DNA from: Amphiura filiformis
Taxonomy: Eukaryota > Echinodermata > Ophiuroidea > Amphilepidida > Amphiuridae
Length of the DNA: 64,000 nt
Assembly: GCF_039555335.1 (NCBI RefSeq)
Contig: NC_092628.1
Coordinates: 65,799,292 to 65,863,291, forward strand
Direction: 5' to 3'
Within the stretch, counting starts at the first letter, position 1. Every line of letters begins with the position of its first letter. The notes under the pieces were generated by a model. That model had not been told where the DNA came from, made no database searches, and saw only the letters and a program-made list of their open reading frames with translations. Shown here one piece after another: positions 181 through 49,258 of this stretch. Position numbers and translations under genes: made by a program.

Positions 181-3100
181 CTGAAAATATACAAGTGATG
201 ACTTCAATCATGTTTCACTGTTGTTCATCACCATTCAATGGCATGCATCCATCATGTCATCTGCATGGTTTACTTTGTAGTAGATAAAGGGTGAGAAACA
301 GACCATTACCATAGATAATCGGTGTCTTGTTGAGGTATGGTGAGCATGTTAGTAAGCTCGGAATGCGAGACCCAAGGGTCGAGCCTTCCAGCTACTAACA
401 TGCTAACCATACCTCAACAAGACAATCGATTATCTATGGTAATGGTCTGTTTTGAACCGCTTATCTTACATATACGGTGAGCCAAAATAAACAAATTTGT
501 TGTTATGGTTTATTCATTTTCCAAAAGACGAACTGGAAAAGCTGATATGATTATCTCGTGTAAGTTTAGGGTTTTCCAAAATAAAAACACACGAGACAGT
601 GTAATATTCTTCCCGTGTGTCCTGCGTTTGAGTCTCACGAGTCTTATCTAGTGTCAATTGAAAGTGATTTAATCAAATCAATACAGCATTGATTTTAACC
701 GGAGATTCTATTCAATTCACTTGTGGTCATGTCCCACTCGATTATACATATTCGTAATATTAATAATGAATATGTAAATAGTTCAAAGGTCAAAGTGGGT
801 GTGTTTTACCTAGACATGGCGGTAACTCATTTAACACCATAGAATTTATATTTATCTTTAATATGCTTATAGAACAAATGTCCTGAACCAAATCAACGCA
901 TATTCCTGGGTACCTTCCTCGACCTTTTTGGTTGGGGTTAGGCCATGAGATTGTTGTAGTTTTTCTACATCTAGTCTTGTGGCCTGTAATGTACTGCATT
1001 TTAGGTGCAAAATATCCTTGGTTGAACTTAATTTGTAAGACCTCATGGCTCTTGTTTTGTTACCTACTTTGTCGGAATCTGCGTTAGTTGGGAGAGGGGG
1101 ACAAAGGTAGATTGACATCCTCGTCCCTAATTATACAGGCTTTAAGACATAATACAAACTAATTTGCATTATTCAATATAGGTGTTCTTGGTGTCATTCA
1201 ATACACACAAGTATTGTTTACCATCTTCATTTAAATCTAATATGCATAAACTTGCATAATAATTTATGCTGATCGTGTAAAATATATTAAACTTTGATGC
1301 ATTTTAAGTTTGTTGAAATGTCCAAAAAGTCAAATAATGTGGCCAGTGTTTCTAAATATGAACATGTACTTCTCTTGTTCAAAATTTATTGACCTGACCA
1401 AGATTATCTTGACCTGTCCACATTACTTGATATAATCGACAGTTGACCAGACTTTGAACAAAAGAAATACAATAGATAATGGAACAAAAGAAGAGGGCTA
1501 GACGTATATGCGAGGGTAGCTTTAGCTGTCCGGTCATGTAATACACATTTATCCAATTAATGATGTGAACATAATAAATGAAGGCTATAATCAATCTTCA
1601 TAATGGGGCTTGGGGTGTTTTACAATGTTACTTTGGTCCATTCTTTATGACAGCCATAAAAGTTGATCATGATATTTGAAAGCATAAATATGCATTTAGA
1701 TTTAGCATAAAAATCCATTTTTTGTGTGAATAATAAAACTGACTCCAAAAGGAATGACAGGGATAGGACAAATCTTACAAAATCCCTATCAAGTATATAA
1801 TATCTACACACAAACAAATGCATGCACACACACTCAATTCTTTCCTAATTCTGAATTAAATCCACCAATTCTACTTACCAAGTATCGTGCATAGATATGT
1901 AGGAAATAAGTTTTCAGACTTGTACATTTTTCAGCTGAGAATGCTGCTCTATCATACTCTCGTAAGTCAAAGTAGGACTTGGCTAATAAATACTTGTCAT
2001 ACTCCTGCTGAAAATCCTGCAGAGACAAACAAACAAATAAACACATTTAATCAATATGTATCTGATGATATGCATCACAACTGGCTCAAACAATGAGACT
2101 GACTCATATTCATAGTCATAGGAAAATGGTACGGAAACACTTAAATAAGCACATTTTCCTGCTCGCTGCCGAGAGGGGGGCAAGCGATTTTTGGCGAGCC
2201 GTTTGGAAATTTTATCCCTCCCCCCGGGCTCATAATTATTGCACAGCCCCTTAAAGTGTACCACATGATATTCAAATATAGATCTCATCCACCAGACGTC
2301 TGTAGAAAAAGTTCCCATCACCTGCATGTTTTCAATGTTATGATAAGGGACTATTTGCATAAGTTATGCATACTATCCAAATTAAACCTATTATAGCCCT
2401 ATTTAGCCGTACTGACTTGAGACTAGTCCCACACCTTTTTGAGGTGAAAAATGATCAAAATTGGGTGTGGGACTATGTCTTGAATTTTATGAATGAATGA
2501 TCCTAACCTTTAGCTCTAGGCAGCGTTCGAATTAAGAATTTTTTGAGGTTGTCCGCTGGACAACCTCAAAAAAATTTTTGGTTGTCCGAAATTTATATGA
2601 ACGCTGGCTCTAGGTCCAGGGATACTCCAAACTCCCCCCCTCCTTTTTTTAAACCTGGAGACTGGGACTTTACCTCGAAGGTGAGACTATACTTGCATCA
2701 GTACGGTATTTTAAATGGTTGCTAAAAAAGTAAGCCTACAAGTACAATGTATCATGCAAAGTGTAAGCAGGCATGTGAGACTAAGATAAAAGTTTTGAAT
2801 ACTATCCGAACTAAACCCATCAAGCATATTCTAGCGAGACAAATTTTATCGTGAAAACTGAAGACAAGATTTTTGCATCAATTTGTCCAACTCCCATGTA
2901 TAAATTTCACACCCCACACAACTACATCCTATAACACACTATATAGTTGGAATTATAAATGCCTTCAGCTGTCACTAGGAATCAATGGTCCAATTTACCA
3001 TAGGTGTTAGGGACCGTTCAAACACTTGTTGGGGGGGCCTGATGCACAAAAAATTTCATCGCTAAAATTGTTCGGCCCCCTCCCCTTTACAGACCTCCAA

Positions 3101-6100
3101 AATTTCAGGGCCCCCCTTTTTGACATGAAAATTATGGGTCAACCCCATAGAAAAGCATATATGGGCAATTCCACTGTAACTTGTGCTACACTTTTGGGCG
3201 TCCTTGGCATACTTTGTGCAACAGCTTTTTAAACTCATTTGATTGGAATCTGTATTTTTTGTATTTTAATACCCAACATTCAAGGCTAGATCCTCATAGT
3301 ATTGCTAAATGAATATATCAACGTTTATGCGTATGGGACAGCTGCGAAAAACGGTAACTCGTGCTACGAGCGGTGACATGCTAAAAAATCACTCATTTTT
3401 ATTTTGATTGTGTCCTAAAACAAAAAAGATTAAAGCTTAATTGATTATATGATAAGTAACTGCTATGCTAAGGTTGATCTTGGTATAACTTAAAAAGTTT
3501 TGTCCCTCATAGTTTTACATTGACTGGTAAAAAACATGGTAACTCGTGCTACGGTAACTCGTGCTACAGTTTGTCCGGCCATATACAAAATGGTTAATGT
3601 TCTTTTAAATGTCAAAGTTTCTTGATAAAAATTCCTCAATGACTGGTATATGATCAAATAACCCAATCTATGTACATATAATAATAATAATAATAATATG
3701 GAGGCACTTTTAAGTGCATAAACAAAACATGTCTCTATGCCCTTTACAAACAAGAAAATAAATGCTATCTTAAACTACAAACTTACACTACAAACAATAA
3801 ATACAAATTAAATGACATTTGAAATAAATAAATGAGTTTTGAGTTGCGATTTGAATGAGTTCAGAGAATGTGCTTGACGAATATGAATCGGTAACTTATT
3901 CCATAGTGTGACCATGATAACCATGATAACCCCAAAAATAACCCAATTTATGTACAAATAACACCAATACAGTGCATGTATCGGCATACAATGTACCACA
4001 CACATTACATCCCAGCATTACATGTATGTACTTATCCCTTGCTCCACCCTGTTTGGATATTTCATACTACTACATTGTAGGGCTTAAATTTCAACAGTTA
4101 AATTGAATAGTCAACAATTGATAGACTTTTACTTCCAGGTTATTTCACCCTAAATTAGTTCACAAAACTTGTAATGTTCGTGGTTCTTTACAATGATCGG
4201 CTCTGTAAGTTTCTTTAAATTTAAAAATTGCTTTCTGAGCTACCGGTATAGAATGTTTGGTCATCTTTTGGTTGAGATCATTTCCTGTGATTTCCTGCTT
4301 GGTGCATTACTGAATACAGTTTGCACGATTTCAATCACTTCACCTGAAAAATGAGACCCATCATACTAACAACATGAACAAATTTTGTATCAATCATACA
4401 AATCTCAGCATCAACTTGAAATGTCACTGTGGCTGTTAGCTAGTCTCAGGATTTCCAGTATTGCTTAGTTCTTTGAGCTAGATTGGGGGGGGGGACTAAA
4501 AATTTGGGTTGCATCATTTTGACCGGGTATTATGGGATATATACTAGAGCATTTTTTTTAGAGAGACTGTACAAGTTTAAGTCTTTGAGCTTCAAAAAAA
4601 GGGACTTTATTGGTATGTGTGCACAAAAATTTGGTATATTTACACTATTTTGCCGCATGATCAGGGTGGAACTGGCTCCTTGAACCTTTTCTCTATCTTT
4701 GCCTTCCATATTTCATTTGTCTGTCAGAAGGGCACTTTTATCTTTAATTTTGGGCCCCCACACATGTGTGTGGTTGCCTGGTTGTTCCTTTGATTGTTTC
4801 TTTGTTCGGCTGCTGGGGCGGAAGCAAATTGATGAATCCACTGTGCAGCTTCAACGCAATAATCGATCAACTACATACTTGGTATACTATGCCAGATAGA
4901 TAGATAGGTATGGTGATAGGATATGGTGGCTTGATGTGCTGTATAGTTTTGTGTTCTGTTATTTGCATATTTATGAATATTAATGAGCTTATTTGCATAT
5001 TTTGCCTACATTTTCATTAATCCACTCTGCAGCTTAAATGCATAACCAATCAACTTCAAACTTGGTTGCATATTTAAGAATATTAATGAGCTTATTTGCA
5101 TATCATTGTATTTACAAAACATTGTTATTTACACACTTTTGAGTGAGTGCCACCTTAATTACAAACTGCGTAATTCTAGTTTGCCAGGGGGAAGTCTGCC
5201 CCACCTGCCCCCATCCCCACTGGCTACAGTAGGCCTACTGCTAGAAAGTTGTTACCATGGTTACATAAATGCATATTCATGCAGTTGGGAGATACCTCTA
5301 TTGCTATCAAGTGGTATTTTGCATTACCTTTGCTGGTACGGGGGGAATTGGGCTATGGTAACTCGTGCTACATCGGTAACTCGTGCTACTGGTAACTCGT
5401 GCTACAGTTTTTAAGGGGTCATTATTATGTGGTGGATAGTGTTTTGTATTTCAATTTCTTATTTTTATTCAAGGTACTACTAGTAGAAGGAAAATAATAA
5501 GTGGCATCAATTAAATTGCCAACCTTATGGAAATATATTAAAAAATGCATCTCTCGGTAACTCGTGCTACACCATATTTAGTGTTATGAAAACACAAAGA
5601 AAGGAAAAAATTAGCGGGGGTTATTTAAAATGTGATGGATATTTCTTGAAGACCATATTTCATAGATATAAAATGTATCAAATTAAAAAGAAAAGTGCTC
5701 CTGTTTAATAAAATAGGCCCACTTAGAAAATATCTAAGTTGAACAGGATTTTTCCACTAAAAATACACTCTCTGAAAGAATTTTTTTTTAAAACAAAATG
5801 TTAGAAAAATGCAGAAAAAAGTTTAGAACTTGAACATTAATACATCTGTTTGGAATAATATGAAAGTTAAAAAGAAATACATAGAGGCAATTTTATTTTT
5901 TTGAGTCATGTCCACTTTTGCTTGGAATTGCCCATAAACTCAATTTTCCCAGGAAAATTTGTGGTCATTTTTTTCACGGCCCCCTCCCCCTTAGGAGGGT
6001 CAAAAATTTTCAGGGCCCCCCTTTTTGCATCAGGCCCCCCAACAAGTGTTTGTGAGCGGTCCCTTATTCTATTCACATGTTTACATACGACTCGCTGATT

Positions 6101-9100
6101 CCAAATGTATCTGATCAATTATAATCAAACAAACAAATTAATGTCTGTTTTAATAGCGAAGTCAGTGAGTATCCCAACTATTAATACTGCCATTAATTGC
6201 ATCTGGAACATAATCATCATTTCAAGTCTGTATTCATTTCACTTGTTTGTTTGAAACATGGCTGCTACATCAGGTACAAGGAAACACTTCTCCCGCTTTA
6301 TACTTGCATATTTGTGTGGTTTTATTATCACACTTTATATAATGAAACAAAGGAGGAGGTCGTTTACTGATTTTTCAGATCCAAATGGACACATTGAAGT
6401 AGATGCTAGTAATGATGTGTCTCTTGATGAACAACAAGCATTCTTTTCTCACAAACATGAAAAAAAACTAGGTAAGTACATGTAAACACAATCTGAAAAC
6501 TTTACAGTGGAAAAGTCCTCCTTTATTTAAATTTATAACATTCAGCCGAAGCCAGGCAAAACCCAATAGTGTTCAGAGGCTACTAAATTAAATAGATGCC
6601 AACCAAATATGACGGGACAGGGATATGGGAGGAGGTCCAAATTTGGTAGGAGGAAAACCAGAGAAACCCGGAGAAAAACAGTAATACTATTAAAAATAAG
6701 TAAACACATACCAAAAAGTAATTACAAGACAAAACTCAAAATATATGCAAGAAATTAAAAAACTGAAATAGCAAAAACAAACCCAGGTTAATTCTGCAAA
6801 TTTTCAGGAGTGTGAGAGCGTAAGATTAAATCACTCCCTTTATTCTTTAGTTTTATTGCTGATATCAACAGAGAAATCACCTATCTTTTTGTAAGGCTGA
6901 GCAATGAGAATGTTGTGTGGCAATGACAAACGGACATTCTGATAGCTGGATAAAGTTGTAAATTTTAAATACTGTTGCTTCTATTGAACAGCCAGGCACA
7001 TATTGAATTAACATGCATTGCTAGCTGTACAATAGAAGCAAAAGTGTTTAAAATGAACAACTTCATCCAGCTGTGAATAAAAATCTCAGAACTTTTAGTT
7101 TTGGGGTTGTTTTTTTAATAGCAGTTTTTCTCTGGTTCCAACCTTGAACAAGAAATTTAGGGTCTATAACTTATTAATAAAAAATTAAAAATTAAAAAAG
7201 AAAAAAAAAAGTGGTCAGAGCAGGAGGGCAATGCTAAGGGCAAGAAGTAGCCATACAAGAAGTGGAACAAAAGAAGATTAAAAAGATAAATGGTAAAACT
7301 TTCAAGTAAGAACAATTAGATTAAGATATTCATAAATATGTGGGAAATAAGTTTTCTGACTCTTTTTACAACTGAGAATGCTGTAAAGATTCACCTTTGC
7401 CTTGATTTAAATTTCATGTGCAAATAGAGTGTTCCTAATCCTGTATTGTAAGTTTCCCCTTTTCATTGTTGTAGATCTGGTGGGGTTTGCATGCGGATGT
7501 AGATGTAGACAAGCATAGATAAGCGTAATCAAGCGTAGACAGAACTTATTAGAGACTAACATTAATAATAACTTTCATAGAGTGCTGCTCCCTCCTCTGT
7601 GCCCTTATTTGCTGGTGGGAATTTTATGGGAGGGCACTTATAGGTTGTGCCTAAAATTCCACTTTGAATGTCAAGGGACCCCATGGCGCCATTAGGCAAA
7701 CTTTTACAGTACTTTCATAAGTCAAAGTAGAACTTGGCTATAAACCTTGTCATAAACCTGCTGAAAATCTTTCAGAGGAAAACAGACACACAAATAAATC
7801 AAGATCAAGATATATCTAATATTAATATATGCATATGGCTCAAACAGTACCCCCCCACACCCCAGTTGAAATTATAAATGCCCAAAGCTGCCACTAGAAA
7901 TCAAGCGTCCAATTTAATTTTAATACCATAATATATAGGATAAGTCTTATCATATTTATACTGACATTGTTGCATACAGGTCACTGATTCTAAATGTATG
8001 AGTGACACTGACTAACAAATATTGAGTGACACTGTCAAGCAATTCTTAGATAATTAACTGGCCTAAGTGTACCACATGATATTTAAATAAACTTGCCATC
8101 CTGACATCTGTTGAAAAAGTTCCCATCATGGTAGCAAATACAAGCAACAAAAATATTGAGATCTACATAATGGATGATTTTGGCTTAGCTGGATGCTGGG
8201 CCTGCCTGAACTTCAACATTGTGCAGGGATGTGTTGTTCCTCACTGGCCAACAGAGTTCTTTGACAAGATAGTATTTAAAAACAAACTTTTTTGAACATG
8301 ACAGCAGCAGCCACAACAACTTTGAAATGTGCCAATTTTGTTAATTAACTGGAAAAATATTAACGACCGCTACAAATGTATATCACACACCAATTATGTT
8401 GGTGAATGTATGAAATATCAAAGGATTGCAAATATCAATTGGAAGCTCCTACAGTACATAAAACAAAACAGAATCAGTCATTAATTCACCAACATGTCGT
8501 CAATTCGTACTTTTTGCTTTGGGATATTTGTGTACTACCAGTAGAGATTTGATTTTTAAATAGGCTGCTCTTGTGCAGCTAGAACATTTCTGTTACATTT
8601 CCTGCGCCATTGCAATTCTGTTTTCATTTCTCTTATTTGATATACTGGTCTGACAATGGCTACTGAAAGGCAAATAACGTTCCATCTGTCCTACTTCATA
8701 CTGGCATATATGTGTGGTCTTTCTATCACACTTTTTGCAGTCAAATTTGGTGGTAAAGTATTTGAACAAAGGAGGTGGTTCACTGATTACTCAGATCCAA
8801 ACGGACACATTGAAGTAGATGCTAGTAATGACGTGTCTATTGATGAACAACAACAATTCTTTTCTCACAAACATGAAACAGAACTGGGTAAGTGAAAGAA
8901 TAAAAATCTATAGTCTATATGTCTACCTCGTCCTCGACAGTAGCTTTGAAGTTCAGCGTGCTCTGCGTTAGCTTAGCGTTACTTGGTGCATGTACATACT
9001 TTTATATGCGCGATCAATGTACCGCATACCCGGACCGCATACAATGTATGTACATGCAAGAAACCACTCTAAGCCAACACAGCACACACTGAACTTCAAA

Positions 9101-12100
9101 GCTAATGCCAGTGACTTCTAGGTAGATATATATATATAGGCCTACATTGTAGCTATATCCGTACAATTATACAAATATTAATAAAAACTTGATTGAAACC
9201 AGAAATGGTTCTCTTTATTGAAACAGAAATGGTTCTCTTCATACATACTGCCAGTGCTTTGCTAAAACAAAAAGGAAACACTGTTGGAGAGCAGCAGTTG
9301 CTGAAAGTAGAGTATAATAAATAATTAACCTTTGTCAAGTATTCTATTCCTTTATGTCTCTACCTTATAGTAAGAAGTCATACTTGTGTGCCGTAATGGA
9401 TGTTTGTTTTCCCATACATGTAGGTGCTTCCTTTCCTAACAGGCCCCGTTTTCAAGATTTGCATTATAGGGTAGGCCTCCCAAAGGGGTCGGCCGAGAAA
9501 CAAAACCAGTTACGTTTATAGGACGTCATCGATCTTTTGGTTTGTTCCCTTAGATCTTAAAAGGTGTAGACCCAATATATTCACCAATAGACATAATGAA
9601 TGCTGTATATTTAAAACAAATGCTACATTTCTTGAACTGTATGAACTTTTAGCCAAAAAGTTCATGTATTATTATGTTAAAGTTGCCTTGGTGTTACTGA
9701 CCAAGATCAAGATTTGAGGGTGTAAACCTACTACACACAAATTACAAAACAGAAGCCACAACTTTCATCACCACACTTTTTCAAAAGTACAAAGTTGATA
9801 ATTCTTTATTCATATTTAACTATAAACCTGATGACCACAAACATAATAATGATGCACCTGTTTCCTTGTTCTTTTACCACAGATCAGGATATTCTAGCAG
9901 ATTTGATGTATTCCAAAGTGAGAGTACTATGCTGGGTCCTGACAAGTCCACAAAATTTAGTAAAAAAAAACCATTCATATCAAAGCAACATGGGCTACAC
10001 GATGTAACAAAATTGTATACATTAGTTCGAAGTGGACCCTGAATTCCCTACAGTTCGTGTGGAGGCAAAAGAAGGCAGAGAATATTTATGGTATAAAAGC
10101 GAGACATACTTTCCAATTACTTTATGATAAGTATTTAGATGATGCCGAATGGTTTATAAAAGCCGATGATGATACGTACCTAATACTAGAAAACCTAAGA
10201 TACTTTCTGGCAGGATATAACTCTTCACAACCAATTTATTTTGGTGGGAAATTTAAACCTTATGTTAAACAGGGATATATGAGCGGTGGAGCTGGTTATG
10301 TAATTAGCAAAGCTGGTGTGCAGAATTTGGCGGAAATTGCATTTAAAAATTCAAAATTATGCAGATCTGCAGAACATCCTGGCGGAGCAGAAGATCTGGA
10401 AATTGGAAAGTGCCTAGAGAATGCAGGAGTCATAGCAGGGGACTCTCGTGACAAATTTGGCCGTGATAGGTTTCATCCATTTCAACCTGAAGACCACTTA
10501 GTGCCTGGTTCTGTAGATAAAGGGTTTTGGTATTGGCAGTATGTTTTCTACAACACATCAAAGGTACCGGTATTATAGCTTTTGAGGATTTAAAAACAAC
10601 AAACAAGCAAAAATAACATGCAAACATATTACTCATTTACAATAATTTACCTACATGTAGTTCATTTATTTGAGTTTATTTGTAGCAATAGAACATACCA
10701 CAATATTATATGCAGCATAATTTCAGCATACTGAATAATTACCTATTTATGGGTTGTTTTACAATCAGGGTACATTTGGGCTGAGCACCATATTGTGCCC
10801 TGTTTCAAATATTAGATTAACTTATGATTAAAAGTTGCCATGCCTAATTATTGGCCCCTATTAGTTCCACCTACAGCCACAAAGAAACTGTTTGAAATGC
10901 TTAGCAAATTATGAAAATATACATTTCTGTATGATTTTGGGACAAAATAACCGTCTCATTTGACCTTTGTGAACTTTGCAAATGATATATCACTGCCAGC
11001 TATAACATAAAAACATATTTTGACAGTTCAGAAGTAATGTTTGAAACATGATTGTTCAAAATTGAGAACCACATAAGATTGCGACGGTTTCCTTAATTGT
11101 ACCATTTCTTCAAATTTATGTTGAAAATTCCGTCAAAAAATGTCCTCTCCGAATACAAGCTCGTAATCCATAGTTAAAATTGACCCAAGACTAAAATTAT
11201 ATTTTCTTGAAAAACACTTATAGATATCCTACAAACTCATAATAAACACTAAGTCCACTTACACTTAGTTTCCATGTATCACATGTTTGAAAGTTGGACG
11301 TCAGGTTTCCGTCAAAATGTGTCCTCTCCGAAAAATTAGGTATACAGAAACATGTGTATCAAAAACATGTTTCTGGCATAACTTGAAACTCTGAACACTT
11401 GACGCCTAAAAATTTTACAGATTTCCTATTTGACCTATCTACAACACAAAAACAAATAAATTGAGGAAAAACTAGACACTTCATTTTTCACCCCCAGTGA
11501 GACAATCTGTGTACCCTGATTGTAAAACAACCCTTATAAAGACAGTGACCAAAATCCTACCTGGGCCTGAATTCACTTATGAGGGTCATTATTTAACACA
11601 AGCCTTGGCCTTGTCCTGTAAGTTTGATTGAAAAGTTCAATGGCACCAATGAGGTGGTCCCTAGCCACAAAATCCAGTTCCGAGATCAATTCCTGGGATA
11701 ACTTATAATTTAAAAACAAACCATGTCAAACATTATGTTGAACGAGGGTGCTGTGCACGCTCATATTTTACATGTGAGTTGTTGGTGCTAATATGTACCA
11801 AAATTATTTTTTAGAGACAATTCTATTTTTTTTTTGTATCACAACCCCCCTTATTCATGTACATAATTAGGGAGACTGGCTCTTAATGAGCTAAAAAGAC
11901 TGGAAAGGCTCATTAATATGTAATTTTTGCCAATATTTTGCTTAAAATCAATGCATAAATGTTCAGGGTACTTTTATTTTGCATACTTTTGCCCTGAAAC
12001 TTGGTCAAAGTGTTTCTAATATCTTCTAATGTATTATATAGTGAAGCCGCCGTCTAATTTGCATATTTGCATAATTAATGAGCTAATTTTTATAAATGCT

Positions 12101-15100
12101 AATTAATTATGCAAATATGCAAATCAGCATAAAAACTTACCAAGAGGTAGGATTGAGTGAACGCTTTTAAAATACAATGTATCCAATTCAATTTGCAGTC
12201 TACCTCAATCATGAAGCTCCCATAGTCAAGGCACAGGTCTTGCTAACCTGAGGTCCTTGGTTCGATTCAGGATGAGATCACTTTTCAATTTCAAATTTTT
12301 GCCTTTGGTCCCCATGGACCAGATTATGCCACATTTATATTTGTACACTTTGTACAGCTGACTTTGCAAAGCAGGCTATTCTAAACATTCAATTTATTTG
12401 TTTCTTTGTGCTTTACTACAGGGTCCAGAATGTTGCTCTGATTACTCCATTTCATTCCACTATGTAAGTCCGGCTCTAATGTATCAGTTAGAATACCTGA
12501 TATACCACATGAAACCCTTTGGAGTTGGACATTATACCTGCCCTGATGAAGCTATACCAATTATGTCCAAATTGATGGATGGAGAAGAGTTAAACAAAGC
12601 AGTGGTCAGAGCAGGAGGGCAACACTAAGGGCAAGAGGTGGCCGCACAAGAAGTGGAACAAATGAAGATTATTTAATATTAAAGATTAGTAGTAACAACT
12701 TTTGATGCAAGCAAGACAAATTATTTGCTATTTATAATAACTCCTTTATCAAATTTCAGGGATTCTTGCCAAAGAAATCCCTATATTGGTCCTGAAATAC
12801 CAATAACTGACTATAATCATATCAGGGGGCAAGAATGCCTCTCACCAGCACTTACCAGGCAGGCCAGCTCATATACTGGCCAAAAAAGGTAAAATTTGAA
12901 AAAAATGCTCAGATTTTTATCACAACAGTCTCACAATGATCCTCTTTTATCAATTCAAATAAAGATAGGTTTCACATACATAGGATGTTTTTTCCCCAAG
13001 GTTACTTGAAATTAGCCTATGTCAATGACCATGCCTATTGACAATGACCTATTTTTGCGATGAGTCTCTAGATCAGCAGTTCCCAAACTTTTATACAAAT
13101 GACCTAATTCTTGCCTGACTTATTTCCCAACCCACACTATTATAGTGGTAGATACCAGCAGATGTCCAGGGGTGGAGGATGGGTGCGACCAAAGTTTGTT
13201 TTGTGCAGCTTATAAACCAAGTACCGGTACAAACTGTACAAAAATTTTACAATGCAAACAAATCACCCGAAATTTGCAATATTGATATATAAAATAAGAT
13301 GTACAGCTTGACCTGAAATTACTTCAACATGTTCAGAAGGTGCTTACTGCAAATAACATGCAGCGTGAGAAAAGTTTGAATTAAGGTACACCATGCAGCT
13401 TTAGAAAATGCGATATAGTGGGGGGTTGTTACATTTTTACAATGTTATTATATGATTTTCTTTCATATGGGTTAAAATTGGTCATGTCGATTTTTCAAAT
13501 GGCCCGCAGGCCGCAACCCCCATGTTTCAAATGTTGACCCGGAATGACCACTGTAGAGGCAAAATTTGACATAATTTGACTTTCTTGCCTATAACTCAAA
13601 AACTGTAAATCACAGATATGTCATTCAAACAATACTTTAACCCTTTGTACCCTGAATAGGCAATGATGGTGTGACACTGAATTATCTGCATAAATTACCA
13701 TACATTTGCCTAATTATAGGCATTAAGTTGTCCTTGCACTGTTTTTAAAAATGCCATTTCGGGTAATATGCAATGCTCTATGATGCCGGAAAAACAGTAT
13801 TTTGGGTTCAAACTGTTTTAAATCTGATTCCTTATAAGACTTAGAGTAAAATTGGTGTGGTTTAACACAATTTCTTTTTGAGTATCTGAATGAACTTTGA
13901 TCCATGTTTTATGGTTTCCAGAAGAAACCACTATAAATTGATCACTTTAAATAATATTAGGAAGCCATGTGCATGCCAATTTGGTGTTTTTTGTCACCTC
14001 TGTCCTTATTTTGGCTGTTACCCTGTGTCACTAGAATACCCCGGTAGAATGCACAATTGCACATCAGTGGGAAAGGGGGGAAGCTGCCCCCAAACAATGT
14101 GAGAACTCTTGCCCCCTCCTGTGGGATGCTGGTTGCCCTGATATTTAGATTTTTAGGCCTTTTTGGCTCATTTTTGACCATCAACATTTCCCCACTTCGA
14201 AATTGCTTCCCCCTGAAAAAGAGACGTAAAATTCTTGTTTAGACTAGTATGAGATACATGTGGTCAATTAATGCCAAGGGTAACATTATTGTAGAAACAT
14301 TCAACATGAAACCACACTCAAAACTTACCAGTGTTTCTTGGTTGGCTGTAGGTGTTGCTAGTGTGGTAGAACTCAATGCACAGGATAACTCGGCACACCT
14401 GTAAATACAATCAATGGCTTCAGCTGAATTGCAGTAATATTTGGGCAAAAATAAAGGCAATGTATCTTTAGGTCAAATTGAAACTATTCAAACTAAACAA
14501 TAATAAAAAAAATATAATTCTATGTGGAATTATTAGAATGATCTTTCAAATTTATCATTACCGTACTTGCCTTTAGGGTCATACTCATACACTGATGTAT
14601 AATTTGCTGTCATCCAGTGGGGGCATTGATGAGTGAATTTGATGAGATTGGATGGATGCCTTATGCAAAAAGTGAGTGCACTGGGCACTTCGTGTTGTCG
14701 AATTTGGCGTCTTTTGCCAATGAGTGAACATGTTTAATAGGCTTAATTTTGATGGACAGGATTTTAAGATATGACCATGTGAAAAATGATAAGTTTCTTT
14801 TTTGGCTTAGTGTACGTACCTAGATACAAAATACAATGCCTGGTAACCGACAACTTGAACAGGATTTAGCAAAAGCAAACAAAGACCAGAGCTATTAAAA
14901 ATTCTAGCCATCTAAGGTAGAAGCTCAAATCCTCTTCAACAGGTCAGCACATTTTATCTTCAAATATGATTATATTTCTCAGGGTTGTTGATTTTTTATT
15001 AAAAAAAAAAAAAAAAAAAAAATCGGATTATTTTTATTTAAATCAATTTTTTATTCCAAGAACTGCTATACGCCATGATAAAGTCAAAAGAGTACCAGTG

Positions 15101-18100
15101 GAATGCTAGTCATATGCACAATCCTGCCAGGTATTTACAAAAAATCAAAACATGTTTTTACATGTGAACATTTCAAAGACAAAATTTGGTAAAATCATGG
15201 GGAACAAACCTGTTGAGTTCTGCACCTCGAAGATGAATTTTTAGCAACAGATAAAGTGACATCATACAGGTATTTTTATTTTTATTGTATCCAAAAGTTG
15301 TAGAAGCATTAAGAATGAAGTAAAACAGTCAATTTAAGCAAGAAAATGGTAAAAAATGGAAAAAGTTGATTTAATTAAATTGATCAGTGATTTTAAAAAA
15401 ATCAAGTGATTTAAATCACGATTTAAATCATTAAATCAAACAACCCTGTTATATTTCATCATGAAATTGACAAGTTTGGTAACATTAATCACTACCAATT
15501 TTGAGAAATTTGCTCCAACTCAAAGGTTATCTTTACTACATTGAGCAATATACTGCGTGTGCATGGAAGCCATGATGGGTAGCATTATATCTAAAATGCA
15601 CATGGTGGTCAGAAGTGCATAATTTGAGATGGGTTTTGGAAAAACATTCTTTAATATTTCTTAACATCCTGCACATTTTGTCTTCAAAAATAGTTTTTTA
15701 TGAGTACCGTATTGTAAGTTTGCTTGTCTGAATTAATCCAAATTCGGAGATAATTGCATTTCAAGACCTGATGCACAGAATGTCGTCACTTCAACCTGTT
15801 GTAGTTCTCATCTCATTAATTTTTCTTTAAAAAAAGTTGATCCCTTGATAAAGGAAGGTCTTGTCTATTTACTGACCAATCAGGAAAGAGTTTGGTTAAT
15901 GTTTTCTGGTGGAATCAGGAGCCAATGCAAGTACTGCATACCATGGGACTTCCTGCATTGATTTGTGTTTGCATTGACAATACATGGGTGAGTGCACATA
16001 ACAGTAAATATGGGAAACCGTTCTAGTAGCAAATGTATTGACAGTGGACATCCCTATTATTAGTATTTATATTGTTACGATGAATAAAAGCAATTTTAAA
16101 GACAAAATCCAAATGTTAACCTTTTTTTGTATTATTTGTGGCAGCGCGTGTTTAGCTTAGCATCAACAAGTCAACATGTTAATTAAAGAAATGCGGAAGT
16201 ACAAGTCCGAAAATTTGCTAAAAGATTGACAGACTTTGCGCATATTTTTTAGGTCTGATTCTGACCACGTTTAGCCTCAGGACCAAAACTGACACGGAAA
16301 TGAGAAAAATTATCATAGTCTAGAGACTGGAGATGGAATATCACGGCGAAAATGCGGTATGATTGATCGTGAATTTCAGATGCACACATAAAAATCCGTC
16401 TGGACGCAAGTTTTTGCAACCTTGTCAGCCTTAAACAGGAAGCATGCAATCGAGTGAAGTCGCGTCCCTGAAGGCTGACGAAGCATTTATTTAGATTACG
16501 ATTTGTATTGTTCTAAAAAAACCCCAGCTTTTCTACCTATGACGCTCTAACTGAAATACAGCAAGATAATGTTAGATACTAAATGTAAACCTGTATTTTA
16601 GTAGGGTGGCTACAATGCTAGCTATTGTGTGTACCCCTGCCTACATACACAAATGTATGGTGAAAATGTAACAGATTCTGCAGCAGTTGGAAAACTTTTG
16701 GGCATTTTGAATTCCATATAATTTGTCTTCTAGTAACTTCTGTGCAAACCCGACTACCTAATTAGATAGAAAATATTCTGCTCATAATGAAGGTGAATAT
16801 AGCATTTTGTAAAGTCACGCATAAAAAAGTTACGCACAAAATAATTTTTTATCATCAAATAAACCTATTTTCCCAAAGATGTAAAATTATGCTATATTCA
16901 GTTTTACAATCTTTACCCTCAGGGCAAAATCCTGTGTAAAAATCAGACAATTTGGTTGTGTAGTTTAGGAAATACAGGCCTTTGAAGGTCAAAATTGGCA
17001 CATGGTCGCATGTCATAAGTTGGGTATGCTAAAAGGGTGGAGGGATTACACTTTTCTGAAAATTGTGATGCAAATTTGATTGGCTTTCCGTAACCCCATA
17101 TCCTACAGCATTGGTTGATACCTCATTTTAAGCCTAATATTATACTCTTTCAGTCTACTGAAGCATATAATCATAAATTATTCAGTAAAAAAATCACATC
17201 AGTTGAAATGAAAAATGCCAGGGGTGGAGGAGCAGGCGGATGTGGAGCAGGCGGATGCGGTAGTGTACGTGCAATAGGGCCTATGTGAAAATTCACATGT
17301 CAGCATGTCAAAACTACTGGTTACTTTTTTCAAATCTAGGGAGGGTATGATGTATTGACAGCTTTGAATGTTGAATTTGTACAATTTAAACAATTACTGA
17401 CTACTTAAGGTGGTACTACACCACCTGATCAATTTTGTGACTAATTTTGCATTTTTCTCAAAAAGTAACTACACACTGGTAACAAAAGTTATATACATGT
17501 ATATTATAGGGGTAAGGAATCCAATTACTTCACTGAAATTTCAGTGATTCAAGACAAGGGGTTCATTATATATAATTAAGAAATGAGGTACATTCTAGCG
17601 ATACCACTTTTCTTATCATAAATAACGCATCCGCTTGTCTTGAGTCACTGAAATTCCGGTTTAGTAACTGGATTCCTTACCCTATAATATACATAACTTT
17701 TGTTACCAGTGTGTTATTATTTTTTGAGAAAAATGCAAAAATATCACAAATTTATCAAGGTGTGTAGTACCACCTTAAAGGGTTATATTTTCAGGCATTG
17801 AGTTTTGCAATGTGACAGGTGTGCTGTAAATCGCACGCCTGGATAACCCGAGGTGTGCTTTTAGGTGTGCTGCAAATCGCACACCTAAATAAACCAAGGT
17901 GTGCTTTTTTCAAAACTGGTGTATGACTATGATTTCATTTTCAGCTAAAACTTAGCAATTGTGACAACATACATGTACTTTTTTTTAATGGCCATGGTAA
18001 AAGCTCTGGGGTAATGAATGGTGTATACTGCATAGATGCCCTGGACTTTGGACTTATTGCTAGTGTCATTTGTAATTTTTTTTTTTTTTTTTAATTAGTT

Positions 18101-21100: not shown

Positions 21101-21937
21101 GTCAATATTATAAGGCCTACGTGTCGCTTTTGAAAAACAGCGATTCATGCGCATGCTCAGCAGGCAAATACGACGGCGATTTAGTACACTGATCATGCGT
21201 GCGATTCAGATTTCTGCAAAAGCGATTGAGTATAAATGCGTCTTTAGAAATGACTGGCGATTGTGTGTTCTCAAGTGGGTTTTATCATGTTATTAGTGAC
21301 CTGACACACATTTGTATTTGTTCGATCAAGCATTGATTTTTTGTACTGGATCGTTCAAGCATCTCCAACAAATTTTTCAATGTAAGTGCCTCTGGCCCTA
21401 GTGGAAGTAAAAACGGATACTATGGCCAGAGTTCTAGGGCTAGTTTACTCAAGGGCTTTAATTTGATATATAAAACGATGCAATTTGATGGCAAATTTGA
21501 ATTCACCTAGGATACCTACTTATTGATATTCGCATGTCGTGTAGAGCGTTAATATGATGCCGGATCAGTGACCAATTTAATGGCGGAACCCTTGGCTTTG
21601 TTCGAACAATGCAATGGTACCACTTTTATGAATAGCCTGTCGCAACTTCTAATCGGCATCAAACGAACAAAAGATTATATAATCTATTGCGACTCTATTT
21701 CTATTTAAAAGCTCTTTGCCTCTGAGTATATTGCATAATGCATTGTAGCGGCAACGCTGCAGAATTCTGCAACTCGATCACCTAATTTTTGTTGCCTTGT
21801 GATTTTCAATCAAAAGTGGGTAATAAATATGAAATCTTACCACTTCACACTTTGAAGAAGTCCCTATCAGAGCACTCTTTAATTGCCTGGAGCAAGTCGC
21901 GTTTTACTTCTTGTAAATTCATCTTTACATCAAGCAT
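32..21937 (-). CDS. CDC23: CDC23 / APC8, anaphase-promoting complex subunit (5' four exons; 3' part outside window)
   Basis: CDC23 is a tetratricopeptide-repeat scaffold subunit of the anaphase-promoting complex (APC/C), the nuclear ubiquitin ligase that drives mitotic exit. Joined exons in window: 21937-21841, 14398-14329, 2016-1879 and 180-32, giving about 151 residues, roughly the first quarter of a protein near 600 residues in vertebrates. Family hallmarks seen: GLLQSVKW + CAELSCAL across the exon 1/2 junction (human GLLHSSKW + SAELAFSL), the first TPR helix [19 protein letters not shown] + SGEKKK across exon 3/4, and [10 protein letters not shown] at the end. All junctions are GT..AG with matching phases. 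Oddities: exon 1 needs one extra G in a GGG run to stay in frame, intron 2 is 12.3 kb and houses an opposite-strand T-synthase gene, and a decayed second exon 3 sits inside that intron. Family identity is very secure; the start codon is less so. Confidence 0.95.
296..455. mobile_element. 160-bp foldback MITE (CDC23 intron 3)
   Basis: Arms of about 60 bp with only a few mismatches: AAACAGACCATTACCATAGA to GAGCATGTTAGTA, against its reverse complement ending TAATGGTCTGTTTT. The loop is about 35 bp. No clear target duplication. Confidence 0.8.
1879..2016 (-). CDS. CDC23: CDC23 exon 3 (first TPR)
   Basis: 138 nt, 46 codons, [17 protein letters not shown], phase 0 on both sides, acceptor CTGCAG and donor GTAAGT. 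It holds the first TPR helix pair. A diverged duplicate lies at 7329-7773, split by an insertion; this copy is the intact one. Confidence 0.95.
2128..2250. mobile_element. one-armed copy of the TTA-target G-rich MITE
   Basis: It ends AATTATTGCACAGCCCC followed by TTA, and carries CAAGCGATTTTTGGCGAGCC, the same arm as the element at 26575-26918. The opposite arm is missing. Confidence 0.7.
2521..2606. mobile_element. 86-bp hAT-type MITE with perfect 8-bp target duplication
   Basis: Termini CAGCGTTC / GAACGCTG and an inner palindrome GAGGTTGTCC..GGACAACCTC. It is flanked on both sides by GCTCTAGG (2513-2520 and 2607-2614). An 8-bp duplication with CAG..CTG ends fits the hAT superfamily. Confidence 0.85.
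3678..3945 (-). mobile_element. 5'-truncated LINE 3' end inside the 3-kb element
   Basis: The minus strand encodes [20 protein letters not shown], then LKTHLF, the classic C-terminal end of CR1/L2-like non-LTR reverse transcriptases. A 3' UTR follows, ending in an (ATT)n tract (3679-3698). It is bounded by a near-perfect direct repeat ATAACCCAAT(C/T)TATGTACA at about 3658-3677 and 3939-3957, the likely target duplication. Only the extreme RT end remains. Confidence 0.8.
4830..5105 (+). repeat. two-copy repeat with TTATTTGCATAT blocks
   Basis: AATCCACT(G/C)TGCAGCTT..ATCAACT appears at about 4834 and 5018. ATTAATGAGCTTATTTGCATAT appears at 4979-5000 and 5082-5103. Similar ATTAATGAGC / ATTTGCAT blocks occur at 11.9-12.1 kb. 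Confidence 0.6.
6258..6471 (+). pseudogene. T-synthase copy A, exon 1 only
   Basis: An intact first exon: ATG, anchor [19 protein letters not shown], stem ending in KHEKKL and donor G|GTAAGTA, 71 codons plus one base. The stem [15 protein letters not shown] is shared exactly with copy B. No exon 2 homologue lies between here and the last-exon remnant at 7211, so the catalytic part of this copy is gone. It could still act as an alternative first exon for copy B by splicing to 9883 (same phase). That is an inference only RNA can settle. Confidence 0.75.
6942..7072. repeat. foldback element, 131 bp
   Basis: AGCTGGATAAAGTTG..GCTTCTATTG is mirrored by CAATAGAAGC..CAACTTCATCCAGCT. It lies between the two remnants of T-synthase copy A, where exon 2 has been lost. 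Confidence 0.65.
7211..7280 (+). pseudogene. remnant of T-synthase copy A last exon
   Basis: 70 bp nearly identical to 12602-12671: the last codons (VVRAGGQ), the stop and the start of the 3' UTR. It marks the 3' end of the broken upstream gene copy and therefore the junction of the tandem duplication, about 50 bp before the CDC23 pseudo-exon. Confidence 0.8.
7329..7773 (-). pseudogene. decayed duplicate of CDC23 exon 3, split by an insertion
   Basis: 7329-7384 and 7711-7773 align with the two halves of real exon 3 (1879-2016) and its flank. Shared stretches include GGAAATAAGTTTTC, GAGAATGCTG and AAGTCAAAGTAG. About 326 bp of other DNA (7385-7710) interrupts it, and small indels break the frame. 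It lies between exons 2 and 3 of CDC23 and is presumably skipped. Confidence 0.8.
7385..7710. repeat. insertion in the CDC23 pseudo-exon; part is a dispersed repeat
   Basis: The right half (about 7608-7705, with TTGTGCCTAAAAT and CCCATGGCGCCATTAGGC) resembles 49130-49250 (TTGTGCCTAAAAT, CCCATCTGCGCGTCATTAGG). A 4-fold AAGCGTA/AAGCATA-like stretch (7510-7540) is also present. No coding potential seen. Confidence 0.5.
8656..8887 (+). CDS. C1GALT1: T-synthase exon 1 (copy B)
   Basis: 77 codons plus one base, donor G|GTAAGTG. It encodes a short cytosolic tail, a hydrophobic anchor ([19 protein letters not shown]) and a lumenal stem with an acidic [15 protein letters not shown] stretch. This stem is nearly identical to that of copy A at 6258, while the anchors differ. 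Confidence 0.9.
8656..12628 (+). CDS. C1GALT1: C1GALT1-like core-1 beta-1,3-galactosyltransferase (T-synthase), nested in CDC23 intron 2
   Basis: Golgi type II membrane enzyme that adds galactose to GalNAc-Ser/Thr to make core 1 O-glycans. Exons: 8656-8887, 9883-10563, 12422-12628. The corrected length is 372 aa against 363 in human. A signal anchor is at about residues 9-29. Exon 2 has [14 protein letters not shown], then [10 protein letters not shown], the metal-binding KADDDTY (DxD type), [17 protein letters not shown] and AGDSRD; exon 3 has [15 protein letters not shown]. Order and spacing match the glycosyltransferase-31 T-synthase group. Three one-base frameshifts in exon 2 break the literal reading: an extra A in the A run 9962-9970, a missing base near 10033-10035 and an extra A in 10095-10098. 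An AATAAA at 12958-12963 is a candidate poly(A) signal. It is either a live gene with consensus errors or a recent pseudogene. Confidence 0.9.
8923..9125. mobile_element. foldback MITE in T-synthase intron 1
   Basis: Arms CTACCTCG..TAGCTTTGAAGTTCAG and CTGAACTTCAAAGCTA..CTAGGTAG, with an inner pair GCATGTACATAC / GTATGTACATGC. About 200 bp, no ORF. Confidence 0.7.
9192..9240 (+). repeat. tandem duplication of about 24 bp
   Basis: ATTGAAAC(C)AGAAATGGTTC occurs twice back to back in T-synthase intron 1. Confidence 0.6.
9883..10563 (+). CDS. C1GALT1: T-synthase exon 2 (catalytic core, three frameshifts)
   Basis: 681 nt between acceptor ACCACAG and donor AAG|GTACCG. It reads in frame from [15 protein letters not shown] to NLVKK, then shifts +1 to [18 protein letters not shown], shifts back for [21 protein letters not shown], and shifts again for ARHTFQLL to the end. 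Net shift is +1. Removing the extra A bases and adding one base gives 680 nt and the phase needed by both neighbours. From about 10098 on, 465 nt are clean and contain the KADDDTY motif. Confidence 0.88.
10751..11533. mobile_element. 783-bp TIR element with TTAT target duplication
   Basis: 24-bp perfect inverted ends beginning GGGTTGTTTTACAATCAGGG, flanked by TTAT at 10747-10750 and 11534-11537. Two internal copies of TTCCGTCAAAA..TGTCCTCTCCGAA (11125 and 11309). No ORF. It sits in T-synthase intron 2. Confidence 0.8.
11860..12130. repeat. AT-rich stretch with ATTTGCAT/ATGCAAAT and GAGCTAAT blocks
   Basis: Repeated TTTGCATATTTGCATAATT and its complement around 12060-12130, with GGCTCATTAATATG-type blocks. 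Related to 4.8-5.1 kb. Nothing coding. Confidence 0.45.
12212..12290 (+). repeat. tRNA-like (SINE-type) segment
   Basis: It contains GGTTCGATTC (box B-like) after TAGTCAAGGCACAGGTC (box A-like). No cloverleaf can be completed, so it is not called a tRNA gene. Confidence 0.35.
12422..12628 (+). CDS. C1GALT1: T-synthase exon 3 (C-terminus)
   Basis: 69 codons including TAA. It starts [15 protein letters not shown], the family's conserved Cys-Cys block, and continues with [15 protein letters not shown]. Acceptor ACTACAG, phase 0. The last 25 nt and following UTR recur at 7211-7280. Confidence 0.92.
12629..14328. other. CDC23 intron 2, right part, no gene found
   Basis: Contains the probable T-synthase 3' UTR with AATAAA at 12958-12963. 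The rest shows no reading frame with family resemblance and no clear repeat structure. Confidence 0.6.
14329..14398 (-). CDS. CDC23: CDC23 exon 2
   Basis: A 70-nt exon between acceptor TTTACAG and donor GTAAGT. The first base completes the W codon from exon 1. The 23 codons run from CAELSCAL through a Thr/Ala-rich linker to NQETL. This equals the vertebrate segment after KW, before the first TPR. It ends in phase 0, matching exon 3. Confidence 0.9.
14980..15448. mobile_element. hAT-like foldback element, 469 bp
   Basis: CAGGGTTGTT..AACAACCCTG ends, inner inverted ATTTAAATCA tracts and a 22-bp A run. TTATATTTC flanks both sides, with one extra T on the left. Lies in CDC23 intron 1. Confidence 0.75.
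15449..17404. other. CDC23 intron 1 DNA without recognised features
   Basis: AT-rich. A short GGCGGATG(C/T)GG doublet lies at about 17235-17260. No ORF with recognisable content and no strong inverted repeat noticed. Confidence 0.5.
17405..17778. mobile_element. TTAA-flanked foldback MITE, copy 1
   Basis: TTAAGGTGGTACTACACC to GGTGTGTAGTACCACCTTAA. Arms of roughly 150 bp run inward (GCATTTTTCTCAAAAA, TAACAAAAGTTATATA). TTAA bounds both ends (17405-17408, 17775-17778), as for piggyBac-type insertion. Same family as 22712-23429. Confidence 0.8.
17792..18566. mobile_element. hAT-like element with nested palindromes, 775 bp
   Basis: Ends CAGGCATTGAGTTTT / AAAACTCAATCCCTG with TATTTT on each flank. 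Inside are inverted AGAATGTCCCTGGAA blocks and TTTAAAATAGGCAAATTTGT against its complement. GTGTGC(G/T)..AATCGCAC motifs recur near both ends. Confidence 0.7.
18567..21840. other. CDC23 intron 1, promoter-proximal part
   Basis: A pyrimidine-rich (C/T) tract runs over about 19830-20110 and encodes only a spurious S/L/P-rich frame. Otherwise no gene or strong repeat was seen. Confidence 0.5.
19830..20110 (+). repeat. polypyrimidine tract
   Basis: Nearly 280 bp of CTCTCC/TTCC-type sequence on plus. Low complexity, potential H-DNA; non-coding. Confidence 0.7.
21841..21937 (-). CDS. CDC23: CDC23 exon 1 (start codon, frameshift in G run)
   Basis: Two in-frame ATGs are possible, at 21937 (MLDVK..) and 21922 ([17 protein letters not shown]..). 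The second aligns with the start of the conserved N-terminal helix. The frame is also open upstream to 22108, which is probably 5' UTR. The strong donor GTAAG follows position 21841. Read literally, the frame hits TGA before the donor. Adding one G to the GGG run at about 21861-21863 restores DRGLLQSVK plus a split W codon, 98 nt with phase 2, exactly what exon 2 needs. The single-base loss is seen in the sequence; that it is a consensus error rather than a mutation is inferred. Confidence 0.9.
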
Positions 21938-22232
21938 ACATTTTCCGTCAAATCTATCAAAACTACCGCCATAGATGTTCAATATAGTTTCCTTCATAAA
22001 TGGCAGCACCAGTATTTTTATTGCATAGGGATACATTAGCCTGAGTCCCTCGGCCCCGATCTCGAAACAATCAACATGGCGGAATAAAATGGCCGTTTCT
22101 GCCAGCACAACCCGATGACCGTGCGTAAGCAGTTGAAGGACTGGTGGATCAAGTCTAGGGATACATGTACATAGTTGATTTTTACGGATGTGGAAGAGAT
22201 GGAACCGGAAGTGAATTCAGAAATTTGTAATC
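21938..22232. promoter_or_regulatory. shared CDC23/TRF divergent promoter
   Basis: About 300 bp separate the opposed start codons of CDC23 (minus) and TRF (plus), so both genes must start transcription here. A perfect ETS/GABP-type site ACCGGAAGTG lies at 22204-22213, 20 bp before the TRF ATG. ATGGCGG cores of YY1 type lie at 22073-22083 (plus), at about 21964-21974 (minus, in the CDC23 leader) and on the TRF start codon itself (22230-22240). No TATA box is evident at either end. ETS plus YY1 at a TATA-less head-to-head pair is typical of housekeeping bidirectional promoters in animals; activity here is inferred. Confidence 0.7.
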
Positions 22233-22407
22233 ATGGCGGCATTTGCAGAAGAGGTTTTTGTAAACAACATGGATACAGAAACTGACAGCAAGCTTGAAAA
22301 GAGCACAGTGTTTGGTTGGATTTTTGAGTATTGCTGCTATGTCTTTTGGGAGGAGTTTCAAGATCACTTTACAGTTGATTCAGCCTCAGAGAGACGCCTT
22401 CTTGAAG
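22233..22407 (+). CDS. TERF: TRF exon 1
   Basis: Residues 1-58. The ATG sits in ATCATGGCGGC, a YY1-like start context. It encodes the short acidic N-terminus and the first TRFH helix. The donor is G|GTTTGT, phase 1. The following intron is 10.7 kb and carries most of the repeats in the window. Confidence 0.9.
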
Positions 22408-25400
22408 GTTTGTCAGGTTTGTTTCTGTTCTGTGCACTGCACTGTACGATGTACATGATCATGTTTTTTATATTGATGTGTGCTGTCACTCACTCACTAG
22501 TTCCAGTAACTGTAACCATACTCTCTATGGTCCGTATATGTCATTATGTTTATAATAAAGACTGAAGTCTTGCTGGCAAGACTAACTCACTCACTGACAT
22601 ATTGGAATGCATGCATGAATGTATTAAACATGTTATAGTAAACCTGTCATTTCAAGAGTATGAGGGGAGCTAGCTTCAGCTGACTCAGCTCACAATCACA
22701 TTTTCAGTAATTTAAGGGGGTACTACACCCCTGCCCAATTTTGTGCCTATTTTTGCATTTTTCTCAAAAATTATAGCATATTGGGGACAAGTAAGATATG
22801 CATATTATAGGGGCAAGGACTACAATTACTGCACTGGAAATTTTATTTCAGCACAGACAACAGTTGTGGAGTTACAGTCAAAAATGAGGAAAAACCAATA
22901 TTTGATCAATAAATCAATAACTACTTGCTTTGAGTTGCTGAATTTTCAGTACAGTAGTTGTAGTCCTTGCCCCTATATATATACATATCTTACCTGTCAC
23001 CAATGTGCTATAATTTTTGAGAAAAATGCAATAATAGGCACAAATTTGGCCAGGGGTGTAGTACTCCCTTAAGGGGGTACTACACCCCTGCCCAATTTTG
23101 TGCCCATTTTGCATTTTTTCTCAAAAATTATAGCGCATTGGGGACAAGTAAGATATGTATATTATAGGGCAATGACTATAACTACTGCACTGGAAATTTT
23201 ATTTCAGCACAGACAACAGTTGTGGAGTTACAGTCAAAAATGAGGGAAAACCAATATTTGATCAATAAATCAATAACTATACTTGCTTTGAGTTGCTGAA
23301 TTTTCAGTACAGTAGTTGTAGTCCTTGCCCCTATAATATACATATCTTACTTGTTACCAATGTGCTATAATTTTTGAGAAAAATGCAAAAATAGGCACAA
23401 AATTGGACAGGGGTGTAGTACCCCCTTAATATATTATTTATCATTTATTACTAATAATACTACTAAATCAGGGCTGTCAACTCTGTTCATTCTGTTCATT
23501 CATATTTTATTTTGCCAATCACCAATCAATAATACAATGTACAAATGTAATTCAATAACAGAAGCAATAATAGTGATAATGATAATAATATAAATCATGG
23601 TAATAAATGACAATAGTAACAATCCTGATAATTCCAGGGATAACATGATAATAATAATAATAATGTACATGTATATAAGTTAATGGCCCGTTTAAAAAGA
23701 AATATAATAACAGACAAAAATAATTTATCAGCATATGATGTTATTATACCGTAATTGTTGACAAATGAGCCGTATATCATACAAGTCGCAGTTATGCGAT
23801 AGTATTGCCTGTTTACAAAAATAGTTAAATTGAAAAAATGTACAATCAAATAATTAGAAAAAAAACCTATATGACAAGATCATTGAATCTACCTGAAAAA
23901 ATAGGGTTAAATCAGGTGATTGACGAGGACCCTGCTCAACTCTCACGCATTGGCCGTGAGTCTCACGCATTGGGTCATTTTCTCACGGTCTCACGCCAAG
24001 GTAGTATAATCTCAAGCCTAGGTAGTAAATCTCACGCAAAAAGCTGGAAAATGAGTAAAATCTCACGCATCGTCAGGAATAATTTGTTGCTCCTACCCCC
24101 CTCCCCACCCCACCGCTTTTCACATTCCTGAGCGCCGTGGCTCAAATAATCATGGTACAAAATGAACATTGGGAGTCGGCAAATCCCGGTACGTCTCTGT
24201 CTCACGCCAAGCAATTCCAAAATGTTGACAGCCCGGACTAAATACTAGATCTATTTTTGCCTGGGCTACAGCCCGGTGATCAATACTGTTTTCCAATTTG
24301 AAAGTGAGTTTGACCTTGGCTTTTCAAGACAGCAAGAGCTATTGTCTGTCCAAATAACTTAGACACCTGGTTTTTAGGATATATTTCGAAAAGTTTTTAC
24401 TTGGGCAAAAAGTCATGAAAGAAAAGTTGTTAAACACGTCAGACCTAACAGAAATTATTAAGTAAAGCGATTAAAAAATATTCTTCCTTGTCTACTTTTA
24501 TTCAATTTTGACCAATTTACAGCAAGATATCTGGGTCCAGCCGAATATTCCTAATGACTTGAAACTTTTGATGGGATAATCTATTTACAGTAAGGGGTGT
24601 TTGAACATTGTAATCATGCATATTGATCAGTAATGCCACCCTTTTTTCTTTGATCCTTTTACTAATTCACAATAATGGCGGTCTACTCAAATGCATTCAA
24701 CAAAAGCATGTTTGCAATCTACCGCGAGAGGTCGCATACCGTCACACGCATAAAAAAATACACTACGATCAAATAGGTTGATGACAATATTTGATTGAAT
24801 GGACTGCACTGTGCCATGATTTCGGTGAAGGACACCGGTTCAAATCCTTTGTTTGGAGCCAATCAATAATTTCATGCACAACCTCTATAACTCAAAAGAT
24901 GTCAGTTATTATATAACAAATGATAGGGCAAGTTACTATGCGTCTGGAGTGTATTGTGAATTATACGTATGTACTCCTCACCAATAACATCAGAACATTC
25001 ATAGGGCATACAATTTGTATTTTCTTGGAATTGGGCCAAGCCAAAAGCATGCACAGAACAAGATTCAAATACCACGCCAAATTGTTGTAATTGGTTGAGG
25101 GACAGCTGGGATCACTGAGCTAATACACTCACTCAATGCTTTGGAAACACAAAAATCCCGTTAGGTCTCAGCGAATGTTAACACTTTTCTTTCATGACTT
25201 TCTTTGAAAGTGGATATTTTTTCAAATAAGTAACAAAAACTGGGTGTCTAAGTTAATTGGACAGACAATAGCTTCATTATACCCGCATGCGAAGCATGAA
25301 CGGGTATATTGCCATTCTATGGTTTCTTCTCCTTCTTCTCTTCCTTCATCAAACACAACATTCTGTCAAGGCTAGCGCTAAAACTACGAGGGCCACAGGG

Positions 25401-49129: not shown

Positions 49130-49258
49130 TTCTCTAAAAATCCTGACAAGAATTTGCCAATGGGATTTTTACTGGAGAGTATTTCAAGATTGTGCCTAAA
49201 ATGCAAGTTATGTCATGGGAGCCCATCTGCGCGTCATTAGGCTAGTCTTTATGGTATT
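49130..49258. repeat. second copy of the dispersed repeat at 7608-7705
   Basis: Shares the order TTTTA..GGGA..TTGTGCCTAAAAT..GTCATGGGAGCCCAT..TTAGGC with the insertion at 7.6 kb, in the same orientation. Diverged, family unknown. Confidence 0.45.

Follow-up and report, generated by a model that had tools for sequence, protein, structure and literature searches.

An exon of CDC23 and the T-synthase gene nested next to it appear twice in tandem in Amphiura filiformis, with different parts lost from the two copies

The window analysed here, a stretch of 64,000 nucleotides from the ophiuroid Amphiura filiformis (assembly GCF_039555335.1, contig NC_092628.1, positions 65,799,292 to 65,863,291), contains the N-terminal part of a CDC23 gene on the minus strand and, within the second intron of this gene, a plus-strand gene for a T-synthase-like (C1GalT1-like) protein. 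Two homologous blocks, at positions 1879–7321 and 7322–12716 of the window, lie side by side in the same orientation, and a single junction joins the right end of one copy to the left start of the next. Judged by their sequence, the blocks are an old direct tandem duplication that copied CDC23 exon 3 together with the T-synthase gene, and each block has since lost a different part. An initial annotation of this DNA had proposed an arrangement of this kind, and we describe below the genes, the blocks and the junction before we turn to the interpretation.

Four exons of CDC23 were placed on the minus strand. These are the coding part of exon 1 (21841–21937, with the first methionine not fixed), exon 2 (14329–14398, placed by phase and homology), exon 3 (1879–2016) and exon 4 (32–180, starting in phase 0, with its donor read in the sequence and positions 34–180 translated). 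Exons 2, 3 and 4 join in phase, and intron 2 extends from 14328 to 2017. When the four exons are joined, with an X at an apparent frame break in exon 1, residues 7–151 of the query align with residues 28–173 of human CDC23 (5g04_C) at an E value of 5.4e-36; this homology covers the N-terminal exons 1–4, the later exons being located outside the window. Exon 3 alone, which measures 138 nt in phase 0 to 0 and is flanked by the acceptor CTGCAG and the donor GTAAGT, encodes 46 amino acids that match human CDC23 (E 9.3e-10), and the Pfam family ANAPC8 matches exon 4 below the cutoff (E 0.0098). In exon 1 the frame that matches the human protein shifts once near 21855–21865; the shifted frame reads LLQSVKW where the human protein has LLHSSKW and, through a GTAAGA donor, joins exon 2 in phase. 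Since CDC23 is essential in animals, we consider this break more likely to be an assembly indel than a lesion.

The T-synthase exons (8656–12628) lie between CDC23 exons 2 and 3 on the opposite strand, and the gene is thus nested in its host. Exon 1 (8656–8887) comprises the N-terminal anchor region, ends at a GTAAGT donor and yields only a sub-threshold Pfam match to Peptidase_M50 (E 0.069). Exon 2 (9883–10563), the catalytic exon, is found in the right block only and matches the Pfam family Fringe (E 5.7e-15). Exon 3 (12422–12628) matches fly C1GalT1 (7q4i) at an E value of 7.5e-12 and ends in the stop codon TAA, with an ATTAAA signal at 12678. The introns are bounded by GT and AG, and the joined translation, with X at three frame breaks in exon 2, aligns over 287 query residues with the fly enzyme (E 8.5e-107). 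The positions and the homology of these exons bear out the earlier placement of a plus-strand T-synthase inside intron 2 of CDC23.

For fly C1GalT1, PMC9065035 names Asp181 and Asp183 as the DxD motif, Asp255 in the xED motif as the catalytic base and His324 as a metal-binding residue, together with Trp300 and the uridine-site residues Glu150, Gly151, Arg152, Leu155 and Lys158. With S73, where the crystallised construct begins, as the starting point of the count, we located these residues in the alignment to 7q4i, and the right T-synthase retains every one of them, including the C-terminal histidine and the EGR..L..K pattern. The protein hence shares with C1GalT1 both the catalytic domain, with X at the breaks, and the conserved DxD, xED base, C-His and uridine-site residues, and it differs from the fly enzyme in that its frame is broken at three places; it is a putative enzyme. 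Relatives of the catalytic exon were also sought among prokaryote and viral contigs, where 21 and 3 pattern matches, respectively, were obtained, none of which was confirmed.

The three breaks in exon 2 are located near 9961–9970, 10021–10035 and 10091–10100, two of them in runs of A, and no further stop or frame break was seen in exons 2 and 3. One frame remains open from the first break to the end of exon 2, but the uridine-site residues are encoded in the frame used between the second and third breaks, and the open frame replaces this stretch by unrelated residues. Since the right T-synthase does not form a single open frame after splicing in this sequence, we class it as a homologue and not as an intact member of the C1GalT1 family.

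A comparison of the left region (1801–7300) with the right one (7301–16000) at a lenient setting gave six strong matches with E values from 3e-46 to 7e-9. BLAST of block 1879–7321 against block 7322–12716 likewise gave six matches of at least 50 bits, all on the same strand (176, 96.8, 89.7, 61.1, 55.4 and 52.5 bits). With coordinates taken from the lenient comparison and bit scores from that of the two blocks, the left and right partners are 1890–1946 and 7331–7383, 1955–2092 and 7710–7846, 2254–2320 and 8065–8128, 2945–2997 and 7864–7916, 6218–6494 and 8608–8909, and 7201 onward and 12592 onward. The controls stayed below 50 bits throughout: the best match was 38.3 bits among 100 shuffles of the right block (order-1 Markov) and 48.3 bits among 23 further 5.4-kb segments of the window, which overlap one another. 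Of the six pieces, five are collinear, and a weaker seventh (6067–6110 and 7956–7999, 34 bits) identifies 2254–2320/8065–8128 as the displaced one.

At its left end the right block is similar to the 3′ end of the right T-synthase as well as to CDC23 exon 3 of the left block. In a breakpoint scan the best switch point was 7321/1879 (68 points), tied with 7322/1880, 7325/1884 and 7328/1888, and switch points scoring at least 65 were scattered over 7312–7335, corresponding to 1866–1895 in the left block. The left edge of the duplicated segment thus coincides with the splice donor of CDC23 exon 3 or lies within about 16 bp of it: the last base of the exon is 1879, and GTAAGT follows on the minus strand. 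All four tied breakpoints (1879, 1880, 1884 and 1888) exclude the donor from the copied segment, slightly poorer ones down to 1866 include it, and the left copy retains the natural donor-side neighbour of exon 3. The idea that the duplication arose by recombination between repeats found no support, as no match is listed between 1801–1890 and anything right of 12700. Taken together, these comparisons uphold what the initial annotation had drawn from the letters, namely a block of CDC23 exon 3 plus T-synthase present twice in tandem, one internal reshuffle of order and a junction near 7.28–7.33 kb, and the comparison of block against block that it had called for gave six matches that its controls did not.

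Whereas exon 3 of CDC23 is intact in the left block, its copy in the right block (7322–7770, minus strand) is dead: it has no donor, its acceptor AG has become AA, it carries small indels, and an insertion of 326 bp (7384–7709) splits it. A second intact copy would have preserved the reading frame, since exon 3 measures 138 nt in phase 0 to 0. The two copies of the exon differ at 12 of 113 aligned sites and their adjoining intron flanks at 15 of 70, which is weakly suggestive of one constrained and one freely evolving exon copy and roughly what such a pair would be expected to give.

The T-synthase gene shows the opposite distribution of damage. In the left block, exon 1 (6258–6471) persists as an open frame of 71 codons plus one base with its GTAAGT donor, and it matches right exon 1 at a tblastn E value of 5e-28; in Pfam it matches nothing at E up to 1. 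A tblastn search of the left block with right exons 2 and 3 yielded nothing at the same limit; a 3′ remnant (7211–7321) is visible by DNA alignment and holds the last 8–12 or so codons of exon 3 and the 3′ untranslated region with ATTAAA at 7277. The left T-synthase is unable to encode the enzyme on its own. Between the two exon 1 copies the synonymous divergence (dS) is 0.37, which indicates that the duplication is old, and the ratio of nonsynonymous to synonymous divergence (dN/dS) is 0.61 (95% bootstrap 0.30–1.43), with 0.94 for the first 33 codons and 0.29 for the rest. Of the earlier statements on the state of the two blocks, that of an intact left CDC23 exon and a right one broken by a 326-bp insertion agrees with the splice sites and the alignment. 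That no exon is missing from the right T-synthase holds for the presence of the three exons and fails for exon 2 as a single open frame, and the claim that the left copy lost its catalytic exon is correct as far as it goes, the loss being wider and including nearly all of exon 3.

A transposon-like insertion of 3.05 kb (3010–6063), with inverted ends GGGACCG and TTA on both sides, makes up more than half of the left block as it now stands; it has no counterpart in the right copy between 7916 and 7956 and separates the left pieces 2945–2997 and 6067–6110. Its TTA flanks would fit a PIF/Harbinger element, and copies of GGTAACTCGTGCTAC occur inside it at 3538–3567 and 5355–5406. The 326-bp insertion in the dead exon looks like a repeat as well, its right part resembling 49152–49261. 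Next to the displaced piece 2254–2320 lies 2175–2251, of the same repeat family as 26574–26652 and 26879–26918. Self-complementary stretches are found at 282–466, 6944–7072, 8908–9139 (starting about 20 bases past the end of right T-synthase exon 1) and 12054–12127, and are probably small inverted-repeat elements; no Rfam family reached its gathering threshold in the whole window. Farther along, a plus-strand exon at 41850–42215 encodes a Myb-type DNA-binding region with greatest similarity to telomeric repeat-binding factor 2 (E 1e-11). An open reading frame at 22215–22562 recalls, by eye only, a TRF homology domain, a likeness left unconfirmed by PDB (no match at E up to 1) and Pfam (none). 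If this frame and the Myb-type exon belong to the same gene, that gene lies head to head with CDC23.

We regard it as quite probable that the locus is best explained by a direct tandem duplication inside CDC23, about 5.4 kb in present size, followed by the ordinary loss of redundant copies. The duplication copied exon 3, at the edge of the segment, together with the complete opposite-strand T-synthase gene. The right exon 3 now lacks a donor, and the breakpoint falls on the donor site or no more than about 16 bp from it; this copy may therefore never have had a donor and may have been dead at birth, in which case its loss was no free choice. A new upstream copy of exon 3 without a usable donor could have been passed over by the spliceosome, which would explain why the duplication was tolerated. 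CDC23 would then have kept splicing from 14329 to 2016 across a longer intron, and the duplication would have done it little harm. The spare exon would subsequently have decayed freely, and, with two T-synthase genes now redundant, a deletion would have removed the catalytic part of the left one while that of the right one was retained.

Several observations weigh against parts of this account. The displaced piece 2254–2320/8065–8128 requires an additional, unexplained rearrangement, and the breakpoint resolution is too coarse to prove that the right exon was born donorless. The divergence comparison of the exon 3 copies is weak, since the five remaining non-coding pieces that were aligned show 51 differences in 315 sites (a count that drops a shorter, overlapping version of the 3′ end) and one of them, the 3′ end with 12 of 101, scarcely exceeds the dead exon in divergence. 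A weaker GTGAAG donor upstream could bypass the break in CDC23 exon 1, which weakens its reading as an assembly error. Finally, the three frame breaks in T-synthase exon 2 may be real and leave no working T-synthase at the locus.

This last point leads to the alternative that fares best, in which the right T-synthase is a pseudogene too, so that the locus would hold one partial and one frame-broken copy and a working T-synthase would reside elsewhere in the organism. All three breaks fall within about 140 bp, a straight reading from exon 1 reaches a stop about a dozen codons past the first of them, and the only frame open to the end of exon 2 substitutes unrelated residues at the uridine site. 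Yet the catalytic and uridine-site residues that we checked persist in one frame or the other, exons 2 and 3 are otherwise free of stops and frame breaks with AG and GT at their splice sites, and a comparable break occurs in exon 1 of CDC23, a gene generally known to be essential. The CDC23 exons show one apparent break over 454 bases and T-synthase three over 1,120 bases, similar rates from tiny numbers, and those in T-synthase are therefore no proof of a pseudogene. At both sites the apparent frame breaks in the gene models may stem from assembly indels, which for exon 2 are no less likely an explanation than a pseudogene. A second pseudogene is thus possible though somewhat unlikely in our view. 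We favour a right T-synthase that is a working or very recently broken enzyme, like core-1 beta-1,3-galactosyltransferase, and its standing as the surviving copy holds if the breaks in exon 2 are assembly errors or very recent.

It is also conceivable, if doubtful, that the left promoter and exon 1 serve as an alternative first exon that is spliced to right exon 2 and would give the enzyme a different N-terminal anchor. In that case the duplication would have turned the nested gene into one with two alternative anchors, with CDC23 ignoring the donorless exon copy between them. Left exon 1 is open, keeps its GTAAGT donor in the same phase as right exon 1, and shows in the protein alignment a single in-frame gap of six codons and no frameshift; the lack of a frameshift and of a stop is a weak sign of constraint on the left copy. 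On a freely evolving branch the probability of zero or one in-frame indel would be about 0.05 at the rate of the other aligned segments (18 indels in 498 bases), and that of encountering no stop 0.27–0.49 for 40 to 20 substitutions. When exon 1 is aligned as DNA only, however, five gaps are needed instead of one, and the indel argument is therefore weak; moreover, the dN/dS of 0.61 (0.30–1.43) would equally be given by one constrained and one free copy, and the left ATTAAA at 7277 may terminate such transcripts.

Subfunctionalisation denotes two copies of one gene that divide its roles between them, and the subfunction-like partition of two interleaved genes that the initial annotation had proposed is highly improbable: intact and damaged parts do alternate between the blocks, but nothing shows an ancestral role of either gene divided, simple loss accounts for the sequence, one dead copy per gene would by our reasoning give the alternating outcome about half the time by chance, and the CDC23 side was possibly fixed by the breakpoint. 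Its reciprocal decay fits the outcome, as different parts were lost in the two blocks. Under duplication followed by ordinary loss, either redundant T-synthase could have been lost and the outcome for CDC23 may have been set by the breakpoint; hence the alternating pattern is no sign of partition. Starting from two copies, or from a copy and a partial one, each gene ended with one that is working or near-working, which is ordinary non-functionalisation and no division of labour. The duplication is real but ordinary in kind. It offers a clear small example of how a duplication with its edge inside an essential gene could be tolerated while the nested gene gains a redundant copy.

In the open-licence literature we found no report of a C1GALT1-CDC23 nested pair, and a phrase search there for a host gene and its nested gene duplicated together returned nothing. 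Tandem duplication of an exon followed by decay of one copy to a pseudo-exon is a known phenomenon. The present locus shares with it a symmetrical exon (phase 0 to 0) copied into a neighbouring intron, one copy being without splice sites, and differs in that the copied block also held a complete, unrelated gene on the opposite strand. Duplication of a host together with its nested gene and subsequent loss of either partner has already been described for the LRRTM and alpha-catenin (ctnna) genes of vertebrates, where some lineages have since lost either the ctnna host or the LRRTM gene inside it (PMC3933685). Both systems have an opposite-strand gene in a host intron, joint duplication and later loss of a partner. 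In LRRTM/ctnna whole host genes were duplicated and the losses are seen between species (PMC3933685), whereas here the tandem copy took in a single exon of the host and the losses stand side by side in one locus.

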